This document shows positions 1-6,300 of a stretch of 64,000 nt of DNA, one piece after another. This DNA is from Pseudomonas asgharzadehiana (GTDB lineage: Bacteria > Pseudomonadota > Gammaproteobacteria > Pseudomonadales > Pseudomonadaceae): contig NZ_CP077079.1 in assembly GCF_019139815.1 (NCBI RefSeq), positions 186,001 to 250,000 on the forward strand, given 5' to 3'. The position numbers were made by a program, and so were the translations under genes. Every line of letters starts with the position of its first letter. Within the stretch, counting starts at the first letter, position 1. The notes under the pieces were generated by a model. It made no database searches, was not told where the DNA came from, and was given only the letters and a program-made list of their open reading frames with translations.

Positions 1-1293
1 TGTAAACATCCGGTACGGTTCCTGGGTACCCAGGGTAATCAGGTCGTCAACCAACACGCCGATGTACGCTTCATCACGACGCGGGCACCAACTGTCTTTG
101 CCCTGTGCACGCAGCGCCGCGTTGGTCCCGGCCAACAAACCTTGGGCTCCGGCTTCTTCGTAACCGGTGGTGCCGTTGATTTGCCCGGCAAAGAACAGGC
201 CGCCGATCACTTTGGTTTCGAGGCTGTACTTCAGGTCGCGCGGGTCGAAGTAGTCGTACTCGATGGCATAGCCTGGACGCACGATGTGTGCGTTTTCCAT
301 GCCGCGAATCGACTGCACGATCTGGATTTGCACATCGAACGGCAGCGAAGTGGAAATCCCGTTCGGGTACAACTCGTGCGTCGTCAGGCCTTCGGGCTCG
401 ATGAAGACCTGGTGGCTTTCCTTGTCGGCAAAGCGGTGGATCTTGTCTTCGATCGAGGGGCAATAACGCGGGCCAATGCCTTCGATAACCCCGGAATACA
501 TCGGCGAACGGTCGAGGTTCGCGGCAATGATCTCGTGGGTACGCGCATTGGTGTGGGTAATCCAGCAGCTCACCTGTGTTGGGTGCTGTTCTTTGGAACC
601 CATGAACGACATGACCGGAATCGGGGTATCACCGGCTTGTTCGGTCATCACCGAAAAATCCACCGAACGCCCGTCGATACGTGGTGGGGTACCGGTTTTC
701 AGACGGCCGACACGCAGGGGCAACTCACGCAGGCGCTTTGCCAGGGCAATCGACGGCGGATCACCAGCACGGCCACCGGAATAGTTCTGCATGCCAATGT
801 GGATAAGTCCGCCGAGGAAGGTACCGGTGGTCAACACCACGGATTGCGCGAAGAAACGCAGACCCATTTGGGTGACAACGCCCTTCACCACGTCCTGTTC
901 GACGATCAAGTCATCCGCCGCCTGTTGAAATATCCACAGGTTCGGCTGGTTTTCCAGGGTTTCGCGTACTGCCGCCTTGTACAGAATACGGTCAGCTTGT
1001 GCCCGAGTAGCACGCACGGCCGGGCCTTTGCGGCTGTTGAGCACGCGAAATTGAATGCCACCCTTATCGGTAGCCATGGCCATGACGCCGCCAAGGGCGT
1101 CGATTTCCTTGACCAGATGGCTTTTGCCAATTCCGCCAATGGCAGGGTTGCAACTCATTGCACCGAGGGTCTCCACGTTATGCGTGAGCAGCAGGGTTTT
1201 TACGCCCATGCGTGCTGACGCCAGTGCTGCCTCGGTACCGGCATGACCGCCGCCGATGACGATCACTTCAAAACGGGAAGGGAAATCCACCAC
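1..1293 (-). CDS. mnmG: MnmG (GidA), tRNA U34 modification enzyme, 3' end cut by the window edge
   Basis: FAD-dependent partner of MnmE; together they place the (carboxymethyl)aminomethyl group on U34 of several tRNAs in the cytoplasm. The first 431 codons are present; the family is about 630 residues, so the C-terminal third lies off the left edge. The FAD Rossmann motif [12 protein letters not shown] is near residues 11-22, followed by the family block [18 protein letters not shown] and by GRAGDPPS near residue 170. The start is taken at tandem GTG codons (1293-1288) with GAGG five bases upstream; no ATG fits the family N-terminus. About 550 bases separate it from its partner gene mnmE. Confidence 0.95.
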
Positions 1294-1399
1294 GCACCTC
1301 GTGCCTGCTTATGTAGGTAATCAGGAATTGTTTGTTGAAAGGGTTTTAGAGCTTTGGCGGCAAGTATAGGGACTTAGCCCTTCCTAAAGAACCCTTTGC

Positions 1400-1710
1400 A
1401 CAAAATTTAACCAGCTGTGGATGAATCACAGACAATAGAAATTAAAAAGAAAGAAATTTATAAGATCTTTGTTTTTATGTTTATTTCTACTGAGCACCTT
1501 TTCTGTGGATAGATCTCTACAAGCCTTTATTTACGGTGTGTACAGAGATTCAAAAGTCTGTGGTCATGTGCCAATGAGGCCCTTGGATAAGTGCTTTAAG
1601 CCTGTGGATTAAAGTATTGGTTATCCACAGAGGGGTTTTTACTCAGGTTTTACGCCCTGTTATCAACTGGGCACAGGCGCGGTTATTCACAGGGCTTAAT
1701 CCACACAAAA
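1400..1710. other. Origin-like intergenic region: AT-rich tract plus DnaA-box cluster
   Basis: The gap between mnmE and mnmG (1294-1842) has no convincing gene. It holds an AT-rich run at about 1427-1500, including GATCTTTGTTTTT (1464-1476), one mismatch from the E. coli oriC 13-mer GATCTNTTNTTTT. Next to it lie a perfect DnaA box TTATCCACA (1621-1629), TTATTCACA (1683-1691) and one-mismatch boxes at 1416-1424, 1504-1512, 1603-1611 and 1697-1705. This is the same layout as the oriC at 5940-6300. Whether it fires, titrates DnaA or regulates mnmG cannot be told from sequence. Confidence 0.6.
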
Positions 1711-1842: not shown

Positions 1843-3213
1843 TTATTTACCGATGCAGAAGCTGGAAAAAATCCGACCCAGCAAATCATCCGAGCTGAAT
1901 GCGCCAGTGATCTCGCCCAGGAGTTGCTGTGCCTGACGCAAGTCCTCAGCCAACAGCTCCCCAGCACCCGCCAGGGTCAGCTGAGCCCGTCCATGCTCGA
2001 GGGCCGCGCTGGCATGACGCAGCGCCTCCAGGTGCCTGCGACGCGCACTGAAACTGCTTTCGGACGTCTGCTTATAGCCCATGCAGGCTTTGAGATGGTC
2101 TCGCAGCAATTCAAGCCCATCACCCGCCGACTTGGCGCTCAAGCTGATAGTGACATGGCCATCCTCGCTGGTTTCCAGAACGATGGCTTCGCCTGTCAGG
2201 TCGGCCTTGTTGCGGATCAGGGTAACGTTGGCCGGGTCAGGTCGCTGCTCTAGAAATTCCGGCCACAAGGCAAAGGGATCCGCAGCCTCCGGCGCAGTGG
2301 CATCGACCACCAGCAACACGCGATCCGCTTCGCTGATGGCCTTGAGGGCGCGCTCCACGCCGATCTTTTCCACTTGGTCGTCGGTATCGCGCAAGCCTGC
2401 GGTGTCGACCACGTGCAGTGGCATGCCGTCGATGTGGATATGTTCGCGCAGGATGTCCCGGGTGGTGCCGGCAATTTCGGTGACGATAGCCGCTTCACGG
2501 CCGGCTAATGCGTTGAGGAGGCTGGATTTACCGGCATTGGGTCGACCCGCAATCACCACGGTCATCCCATCGCGCAGTAAAGCGCCCTGCCCGGCTTCGT
2601 GCAGAACGGTGGATAACTCCTCACGGACTTTATCCAGCATCGCCAAGACGTGGCCATCGGCGAGGAAGTCGATTTCTTCCTCAGGAAAATCAATCGCCGC
2701 CTCAACGTAGATACGCAGGCTAATCAATTGCTCGGTCAAGTTATGCACACGCACCGAAAATGCCCCCTGCAAAGAACGCAACGCGTTGCGCGCCGCCTGT
2801 GCAGAACTGGCCTCAATCAAGTCGGCGATGGCTTCGGCCTGTGCCAGGTCGAGCTTATCGTTAAGGAATGCCCGCTCACTGAACTCACCTGGACGGGCCA
2901 GACGGCAACCCAATTGCAGACAGCGTTGCAACAGCATATCCAGGACCACGGGGCCGCCGTGGCCCTGTAGCTCCAGGACATCTTCACCGGTGAAGGAGTT
3001 GGGGCCTGGGAAATAGAGCGCCAGGCCTTCGTCCAACACGCTTTCGTCGGCGGCCAGAAATTGGCCGTAATGGGCGTAACGCGGCTTCAACTCCCGACCG
3101 CTGATCGCCTTGGCGGCAGGACCTGCGAGCGGTCCGGAAATACGCACAATACCGACGCCGCCGCGACCTTGAGCGGTTGCAACAGCAGCGATGGTTTCAC
3201 GAGGAGCGCTCAT
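1843..3213 (-). CDS. mnmE: MnmE (TrmE/ThdF), tRNA modification GTPase
   Basis: GTPase that works with MnmG on tRNA wobble uridines. 456 residues, the usual length. An N-terminal folate-binding domain starts [18 protein letters not shown]. An inserted G domain has [14 protein letters not shown] (G1, about residue 225), [10 protein letters not shown] (G3), NKAD (G4) and a SAKS-type G5. The chain ends in the family's C-terminal FCIGK with the functional cysteine. The ATG at 3211-3213 is chosen because it gives the family N-terminus [10 protein letters not shown]; an in-frame TTG 18 bases upstream is less likely. A terminator lies between it and yidC, so it may have its own promoter in the short gap that also holds a DnaA box. 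Confidence 0.96.
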
Positions 3214-3248
3214 CGGCAGGTTCCAGGACAAAAGTGACGGAAAGCAAA

Positions 3249-5939: not shown

Positions 5940-6300
5940 AGCCATAGATATAAAAATAAAGAAGGAAGGTATTTAAAGCTTTTTTGTAAAGCTTATAAAA
6001 GCTAGAGAGGCCATCGCCTGTGGATAACTGCCTTTAGGCCTTATTCCACCTGCTGTACAGAGAATGACAACACGGGGGAGAAACGGTGCTCTGCCTGTGC
6101 TGCGCTGTCGGATAAGCTGTGTGTGGAATAGGGTTTTATCCACAGGCCAGTTACCCACAGACTTTCGACCCCACTTGTACAACGAGCTCAGGGGCGCTTA
6201 TCCACAGAGCTTATGCACAGACCATTGGTCGCCTTTTTTAGGCATAAGGCGTTGATTTTGGCCGGTCTGTGAGCAACCTACATGTGGATAAGTGGACGGC
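5940..6300. other. oriC: Chromosomal replication origin oriC
   Basis: The 586-base gap between rpmH and dnaA has no gene and has the usual parts of a Pseudomonas origin. An AT-rich stretch at about 5946-6003 is the likely duplex unwinding element. DnaA boxes follow: TTATCCACA perfect at 6136-6144 and 6198-6206 on the plus strand and at 6019-6027 and 6283-6291 on the minus strand, TTATGCACA at 6211-6219, and TTACCCACA (one mismatch) at 6151-6159. Genes to the left run left and genes to the right run right, as expected for bidirectional replication. Confidence 0.93.

Follow-up and report, generated by a model that had tools for sequence, protein, structure and literature searches.

An oriC-type DnaA-box array beside mnmG in Pseudomonas and its probable paralogy with the rpmH-dnaA origin

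Why the replication origin of E. coli is located at gidA (mnmG) while that of many of its relatives is located at dnaA is an old question, and it is raised again by a stretch of Pseudomonas asgharzadehiana DNA in which both places lie close to each other. This stretch of 64,000 nucleotides (positions 186001-250000 of a single contig of 6.1 Mb), in the following referred to as the window, harbours the leftward genes mnmG, mnmE, yidC, rnpA and rpmH and the rightward dnaA, the identities of mnmG, mnmE, yidC, rpmH and dnaA having been confirmed by NCBIfam. According to the parts of PMC3056050 and PMC3642087 available to us, oriC adjoins dnaA in P. putida and P. aeruginosa. The gap which extends from the mnmG start (1290 or 1293) to the mnmE stop (1843) had, however, been predicted from the sequence to be a second origin-like region, namely an ancestral or auxiliary DnaA-binding locus. 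What, then, is this gap, and how is it related to the origin at dnaA?

DnaA boxes and an AT-rich stretch upstream of mnmG

Within the gap a highly AT-rich stretch precedes a set of DnaA boxes whose arrangement is fixed, and altogether six boxes with at most one mismatch from TTATCCACA are present (A to F in Table 1). All elements named by the original prediction, i.e. the AT-rich stretch, a 13-mer-like element and a box cluster including one perfect box and one TTATTCACA, could be located. With respect to the “13-mer” GATCTTTGTTTTT the claim holds in part: the element is present and its T-run is conserved, while GATC is not the conserved part (the consensus of the region reads AAATCTTTGTTTTT). 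Only one other site in 400 kb is as unstable as the AT-rich 60-mer, and no site in 20 scattered samples matches it.

Table 1. Coordinates of genes and origin-like features in the window. Spacings are measured from box B and counted in 59 genomes.
Feature	Positions	Strand	Remarks
mnmG (gidA), 5' part	1..1293	-	TIGR00136, 5e-215; GTG start at 1290 or 1293
Conserved block, mnmG to AT-rich stretch	1363..1413	-	mean conservation 0.86-0.94, 59 genomes
Box A, TCATCCACA	1416..1424	-	variable; not found in e.g. the congeners L046 and L050
AT-rich stretch, candidate DNA unwinding element (DUE)	1430..1489		dG -61.9
13-mer-like GATCTTTGTTTTT	1464..1476	+	T-run conserved, GATC not
Box B, R1-like, CTATCCACA	1504..1512	-	adjoins DUE
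TGTACAGAGA, non-box element	1539..1548		common to both copies
Box C, TAATCCACA	1603..1611	-	99 bp from B; (-,-) spacing 99 in 55/59
Box D, perfect TTATCCACA	1621..1629	+	117 bp from B; (-,+) spacing 117 in 59/59
Box E, R4-like, TTATTCACA	1683..1691	+	179 bp from B; (-,+) spacing 179 in 54/59
Box F, TAATCCACA	1697..1705	+	14 bp after E; (-,+) spacing 193 in 38/59
mnmE, longest frame	1843..3231	-	NF003661, 2e-135 over 1846-3210
Paralogous oriC array, rpmH-dnaA gap	5943..6216	+	mnmG-copy profile, E 2.5e-30
AT-rich stretch (DUE), dnaA-side oriC	5945..6004		best 60-mer, dG -64.6
R1-like box, dnaA-side copy	6019..6027	-	B + 4515
Box, dnaA-side copy	6136..6144	+	D + 4515
Box, dnaA-side copy	6198..6206	+	E + 4515
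dnaA	6358..7875	+	TIGR00362, 5e-190

A 1-kb query matched all 99 congeneric genomes sampled, the own genome included. Spacing and conservation were compared in 59 of these genomes, the window included (11 of the 29 congener loci L010-L038 were excluded since their genomes are already contained in G001-G040), and the genus as a whole was covered by a pattern scan of 298 genomes. Per 20-bp bin, conservation amounts to 0.65-0.94 from 1354 to 1713 and drops to 0.35-0.56 in the bins just outside, so the predicted limits of 1400-1710 were nearly right. The AT-rich stretch is conserved like the boxes (0.86-0.88 over 1454-1493), and conservation of the boxes among relatives is borne out by the 117-bp pair present in every gap compared. 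The pattern scan, in which three box cores were required at fixed distances, found exactly two arrays in 241 of the 298 genomes, one in 53 and none in 4, three of the latter being less than 90% complete; these numbers were counted by hand from the table, the 294 genomes with a match agree with the tally of the tool, and a reversed control gave 0. Applied to 195 genomes of the order, the same strict pattern is found in 5/5 Pseudomonas, 0/4 other Pseudomonadaceae and 4/186 other genomes, these four all belonging to one family. Of the four other Pseudomonadaceae, the two with available gaps (L120 and L121) carry both arrays by both profiles and were missed by the strict pattern because of minor changes.

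Between mnmG and the AT-rich stretch, the hexamer TATACT is found on the minus strand (1363-1368) inside the conserved block. It is a possible candidate for the -10 element of an mnmG promoter, while a consensus scan for sigma-70 promoters returned no match in the mnmG-mnmE gap. On the opposite side, the stretch between the array and mnmE (1713-1842 in the window) serves as an insertion site in some congeners, leaving the array undisturbed (e.g. L055 3098-5533, L042 1551-2054, L039 and L046). Four of eight inserts inspected contain ECF sigma-FecR-TonB receptor frames, as checked by Pfam for L055 and L042 only, and the remaining ones other large frames. In some congeners the distance between mnmG and mnmE amounts to 3.8-8.9 kb, with the array remaining beside mnmG.

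The window as a whole contains 49 boxes with at most one mismatch compared to 6.4 +/- 2.6 in shuffled sequences. Genome-wide there are 135 perfect boxes (20 for a reversed control) and 908 with at most one mismatch (509 for the control). In 800 kb of the host genome, comprising 400 kb of contiguous sequence and 20 scattered samples of 20 kb each, at least four boxes within 311 bp occur at three places only, with six in the mnmG gap, six in the rpmH-dnaA gap and five at a site some 75 kb to the left of the window. The background is uneven, with 63 boxes in 50 kb (contig 160-210 kb) versus 45 in all scattered samples together (400 kb), i.e. an about 11-fold raised density over 50 kb around the origin; part of the signal of the gap thus belongs to a box-rich origin domain. 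We would like to note that this enrichment spans tens of kilobases (contig 160000-222000; window 1-40000) and includes the coding sequences of mnmG, mnmE, yidC and dnaA. Judged by its sequence, the gap would qualify as a member of the oriC class, as it combines a box cluster above background, an AT-rich element beside an R1-like box, and conserved spacing and orientation.

The third cluster consists of five boxes on the same strand, 12 to 46 bp apart, inside a coding gene at contig 111466-111766 (L003 1400-1700). This gene encodes a PdxR/MocR-type regulator, the boxes being located in its linker, and at least three boxes are present in all 20 congeners chosen among the matching genomes (56 of 59). 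In 20 sequences (the genome of the window and 19 relatives), leucine is encoded by TTA in 66 of 105 codons of the box region versus 16 of 483 in the remainder of these pieces, a bias due to which the DNA itself seems selected. This array is a candidate site of DnaA titration or regulation.

Relationship to the rpmH-dnaA origin

The likeness between the mnmG gap and the rpmH-dnaA gap goes beyond the mere presence of boxes. An ungapped alignment of the two gaps at an offset of 4515 yields 149 identities in 308 positions, with the next best position in the window reaching 107, and a profile built from 35 dnaA gaps in turn recognises the mnmG gap with an E value of 4e-29. These 35 genomes are those with both gaps, since 6 of 41 long congener loci end short of dnaA. 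Outside the boxes, the two copies of the same genome share on average 43.4% identity as opposed to 25.7% in slid controls (maximum 39.5%), and the spacings of 117 and 179 are each found in 34 of the 35 dnaA gaps. The dnaA gap of L066 fits the spacing poorly (12 mismatches); it was kept in the main comparison and dropped in a repeat. We conclude, with a probability of roughly 0.95, that the mnmG gap contains an array of the oriC type, made up of a DUE and DnaA boxes of fixed spacing and orientation, and that this array and the one between rpmH and dnaA are paralogues. The comparison thus supports the assignment as an ancestral or auxiliary DnaA-binding locus and at the same time identifies the gap as a probable paralogue of the main oriC. 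The rpmH-dnaA oriC of Pseudomonas (Yee and Smith 1990, as cited in the part of PMC3056050 accessible to us) accordingly resembles the mnmG copy in its colinear arrangement, its equal spacings and the presence of TGTACAGAGA, and differs from it in adjoining dnaA and in its anchor boxes.

Paralogues from the same genome are 49.3% alike and paralogues from different genomes 48.6%, while identity between orthologues is higher, amounting to 68.9% for the mnmG copy and 65.4% for the dnaA copy (35 genomes; 69.5% and 67.1% if L066 is omitted). Since the likeness of paralogues is practically equal within and across genomes and exceeded by that of orthologues, the duplication predates the sampled genus, the copies have evolved without homogenising, and the mnmG copy is constrained about as much as the origin in use. 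The two copies differ in the quality of their three anchor boxes. In the dnaA copy all three are perfect in 28 of 35 genomes, whereas those of the mnmG copy contain one to three mismatches in 41 of 41 genomes and are all perfect in none. Compared genome by genome, the mnmG copy has more mismatches than the dnaA copy in 31 of 35 cases, an equal number in 3 and fewer in 1, the latter being the misfit L066.

A further perfect box is located on the minus strand at 6283-6291, about 75 bp before dnaA and outside the duplicated block. A box 70-88 bp before dnaA is present in all 12 loci listed, the window included, and is possibly involved in dnaA autoregulation.

Origin position in related families and in the literature

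The E. coli oriC, situated between mnmG and mioC, shares with the mnmG copy both its place beside mnmG, as the original prediction had pointed out, and the order mnmG, AT-rich stretch, R1 (-) and (+) boxes. Its R1-R4 distance of 180 bp compares to 179 bp between B and E; in contrast, the R2-like box lies at 106 bp versus 117 bp, and the other flank is formed by mioC instead of mnmE. These distances are widespread in Enterobacterales and kin (80 loci, including Vibrio, Photobacterium and a few Alteromonas-like genera), where R1-R4 measures 180 or 179 bp in 74 and R1-R2 106 bp in 72 of the 80 mnmG gaps. A profile search revealed no significant sequence similarity between the mnmG copy and the Enterobacterales oriC (E about 2; a hit with 0.11 lies on the wrong strand). 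The dnaA-side copy is closer to E. coli oriC (E 4e-4 and 5e-4), which is a point against a history starting at mnmG.

Other families of the Pseudomonadales were sampled by 40 of 116 matched genomes, with dnaA within reach in 29. At least two boxes are found within 600 bp upstream of mnmG in 25 of 38 genomes. The Enterobacterales profile recognises mnmG gaps of these families (L159 5e-11, L156 8e-7, L146 7e-5) and, more weakly, dnaA gaps (best L144 6e-4); up to an E value of 0.1 it matches 9 mnmG gaps and 6 dnaA gaps among 40 loci of the order. The profile of the Pseudomonas dnaA gaps behaves likewise, its matches to mnmG gaps of other families (L150 2e-8, L128 6e-8, L129 3e-6) being stronger than those to their dnaA gaps (best L152 1.6e-4). 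Three families (L144, L141 and L152) show Pseudomonas-profile matches at the dnaA gap, at about 1e-4 to 8e-4, and such array-like matches render the direction of the move uncertain. In the one relative examined by skew (genome G129, locus L150), mnmG and dnaA are 40 kb apart, and the minimum of the cumulative GC skew of 400 kb is located 1.05 kb from the mnmG start, with dnaA on the slope. This minimum, together with the profile matches, argues for mnmG as the older place. On balance, the mnmG side is quite probably the older origin site, where Enterobacterales still keep theirs.

A tree of 68 arrays, intended to date the duplication relative to the split from Enterobacterales, contributes little to this decision. 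Its deep split is weakly supported (69/99), one row from the Enterobacterales side and one from another family are grouped with the Pseudomonadaceae, and neither copy is rejected by one-clade tests (p 0.57 and 0.39); what it indicates is only that copies group by gap and not by genome. In the class as a whole, at least three boxes at mnmG occur in 4 of 40 genomes (sampled from 139 matched), which shows the array to be no general feature of this class, and a search around L184 (genome G311) led to one genome only. In two class relatives, the array profiles match the opposite strand some 1.4 kb beyond the start of dnaA (L175 6750-6942 and L176 5511-5692 relative to the mnmG start, best E 4e-6 and 4e-8); they probably mark the dnaA-dnaN gap as another potential seat of an oriC array.

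Which copy is used cannot be read from strand composition in the host, as its cumulative GC skew hardly changes between about 170 and 202 kb (minimum at 171311), so that gaps only 4.5 kb apart are inseparable. At fourfold sites, the skew of yidC and mnmE relative to dnaA has a median of +0.083 in Pseudomonas (8 of 35 below 0, kinship ignored) and of -0.273 in 11 families with an array at mnmG, three of which are near or above 0. Controls without the mnmG array turned out to be negative too (11 loci of the order without array match, median -0.11; 4 loci with dnaA-gap matches, all below 0), and L120, carrying both copies, gave -0.20. This gene-level skew was thus dropped as a sign of which gap fires.

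DnaA boxes near gidA in P. putida are said to have been noted by Ogasawara and Yoshikawa in 1992. According to the portion of PMC4403523 available, P. aeruginosa possesses two autonomously replicating elements, only one of them essential in the laboratory, and two putative origins were proposed for this species (Jiang et al. 2006, via the same source); these likewise make two candidates, the second of which may or may not correspond to the mnmG gap. As far as the accessible text of PMC7174414 goes, gammaBOriS lists two oriCs in 105 of 460 gammaproteobacterial chromosomes; in the corresponding text of PMC6323995, DoriC 10 reports two potential oriCs in some Gammaproteobacteria, with the gidA-adjacent one being kept. 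Neither excerpt states a duplicate status of these double entries or names the Pseudomonas gap. TTCTGTGGATAGA at 1501-1513, spanning box B, agrees letter for letter with the genus-Pseudomonas oriC motif given in the part of PMC7174414 seen, which adds that consensus oriC motifs need not occur exactly. A second candidate origin is thus already in print; in the literature covered, which consisted partly of excerpts and did not extend to key older origin papers, we met neither a description of the two Pseudomonas gaps as duplicates of each other, with a conserved oriC copy in the ancestral place, nor DnaA-binding data for Pseudomonas.

Candidate roles of the mnmG copy

Several explanations of the mnmG gap have to be weighed against each other. 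That it arose by chance, or is just one section of the box gradient near the origin, might be suggested by the 11-fold box density in this region; the fixed spacing in 59 of 59 genomes and the colinear identity with oriC outside the boxes refute this, and we regard it as practically dismissed. Decay of a functionless relic would agree with the weaker boxes and with the single strict match in 53 of 298 genomes, yet it is very unlikely, as conservation of the mnmG copy roughly equals that of the working oriC while its flanks fall behind. A DnaA-controlled promoter region of mnmG, whose origin-like appearance is a by-product of history, would fit the conserved TATACT block and the persistence of the array at mnmG where mnmE is kilobases away. 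It appears improbable, however, given that boxes in origin layout are found as far as some 340 bp upstream of the potential -10 element, that in other families (e.g. L125, L136 and L157) no box is found within 600 bp of mnmG, and that the gidA promoter was, in the part of PMC3909081 available to us, tested with ParA and ParB but not with DnaA.

A more serious contender, though still on the unlikely side, is a DnaA sink or regulatory site with a datA- or DARS-like role, which would hold DnaA near oriC and set timing without opening DNA. Both the boxes being weaker than those of oriC in 31 of 35 genomes and the location in a box-rich domain of tens of kilobases are in line with it. For a pure sink, in contrast, both the AT-rich stretch and its distance from box B would be dispensable, and this stretch ranks with the least stable sites of 400 kb and is well conserved. 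Rather doubtful as well is the coexistence of two working oriCs 4.5 kb apart, the ancestral and weaker one being located at mnmG and the duplicate at dnaA, either with conditional firing of the mnmG origin or with the DnaA arrays of both gaps joined across the loop into a bipartite origin. Among the present roles considered, that of a secondary origin seems the likeliest, with a confidence that is evenly balanced.

With respect to history, the array would have been duplicated into the rpmH-dnaA gap in the stem of the Pseudomonadaceae, where the duplicate would have become the main origin, the mnmG copy being retained by selection in the role of a secondary and weaker origin module; to this sequence of events as a whole we assign about even odds. 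As a secondary origin module, the mnmG copy would presumably be bound by DnaA at box D and subsequently at B and E, from where DnaA would extend from B towards the AT-rich stretch, which may then open. Because its boxes are weaker than those of the main copy in most genomes, the mnmG copy is expected to fill later; it would fire rarely or conditionally and meanwhile hold DnaA near oriC.

As a practical consequence, either gap can be reported by tools that assign a single oriC to each Pseudomonas genome. If the proposed history is true, Pseudomonas would provide a natural case of an origin moved by duplication with the old origin still present and selected. A lineage with both duplicate arrays under selection would show how an origin can move, a step which is testable in a laboratory strain.
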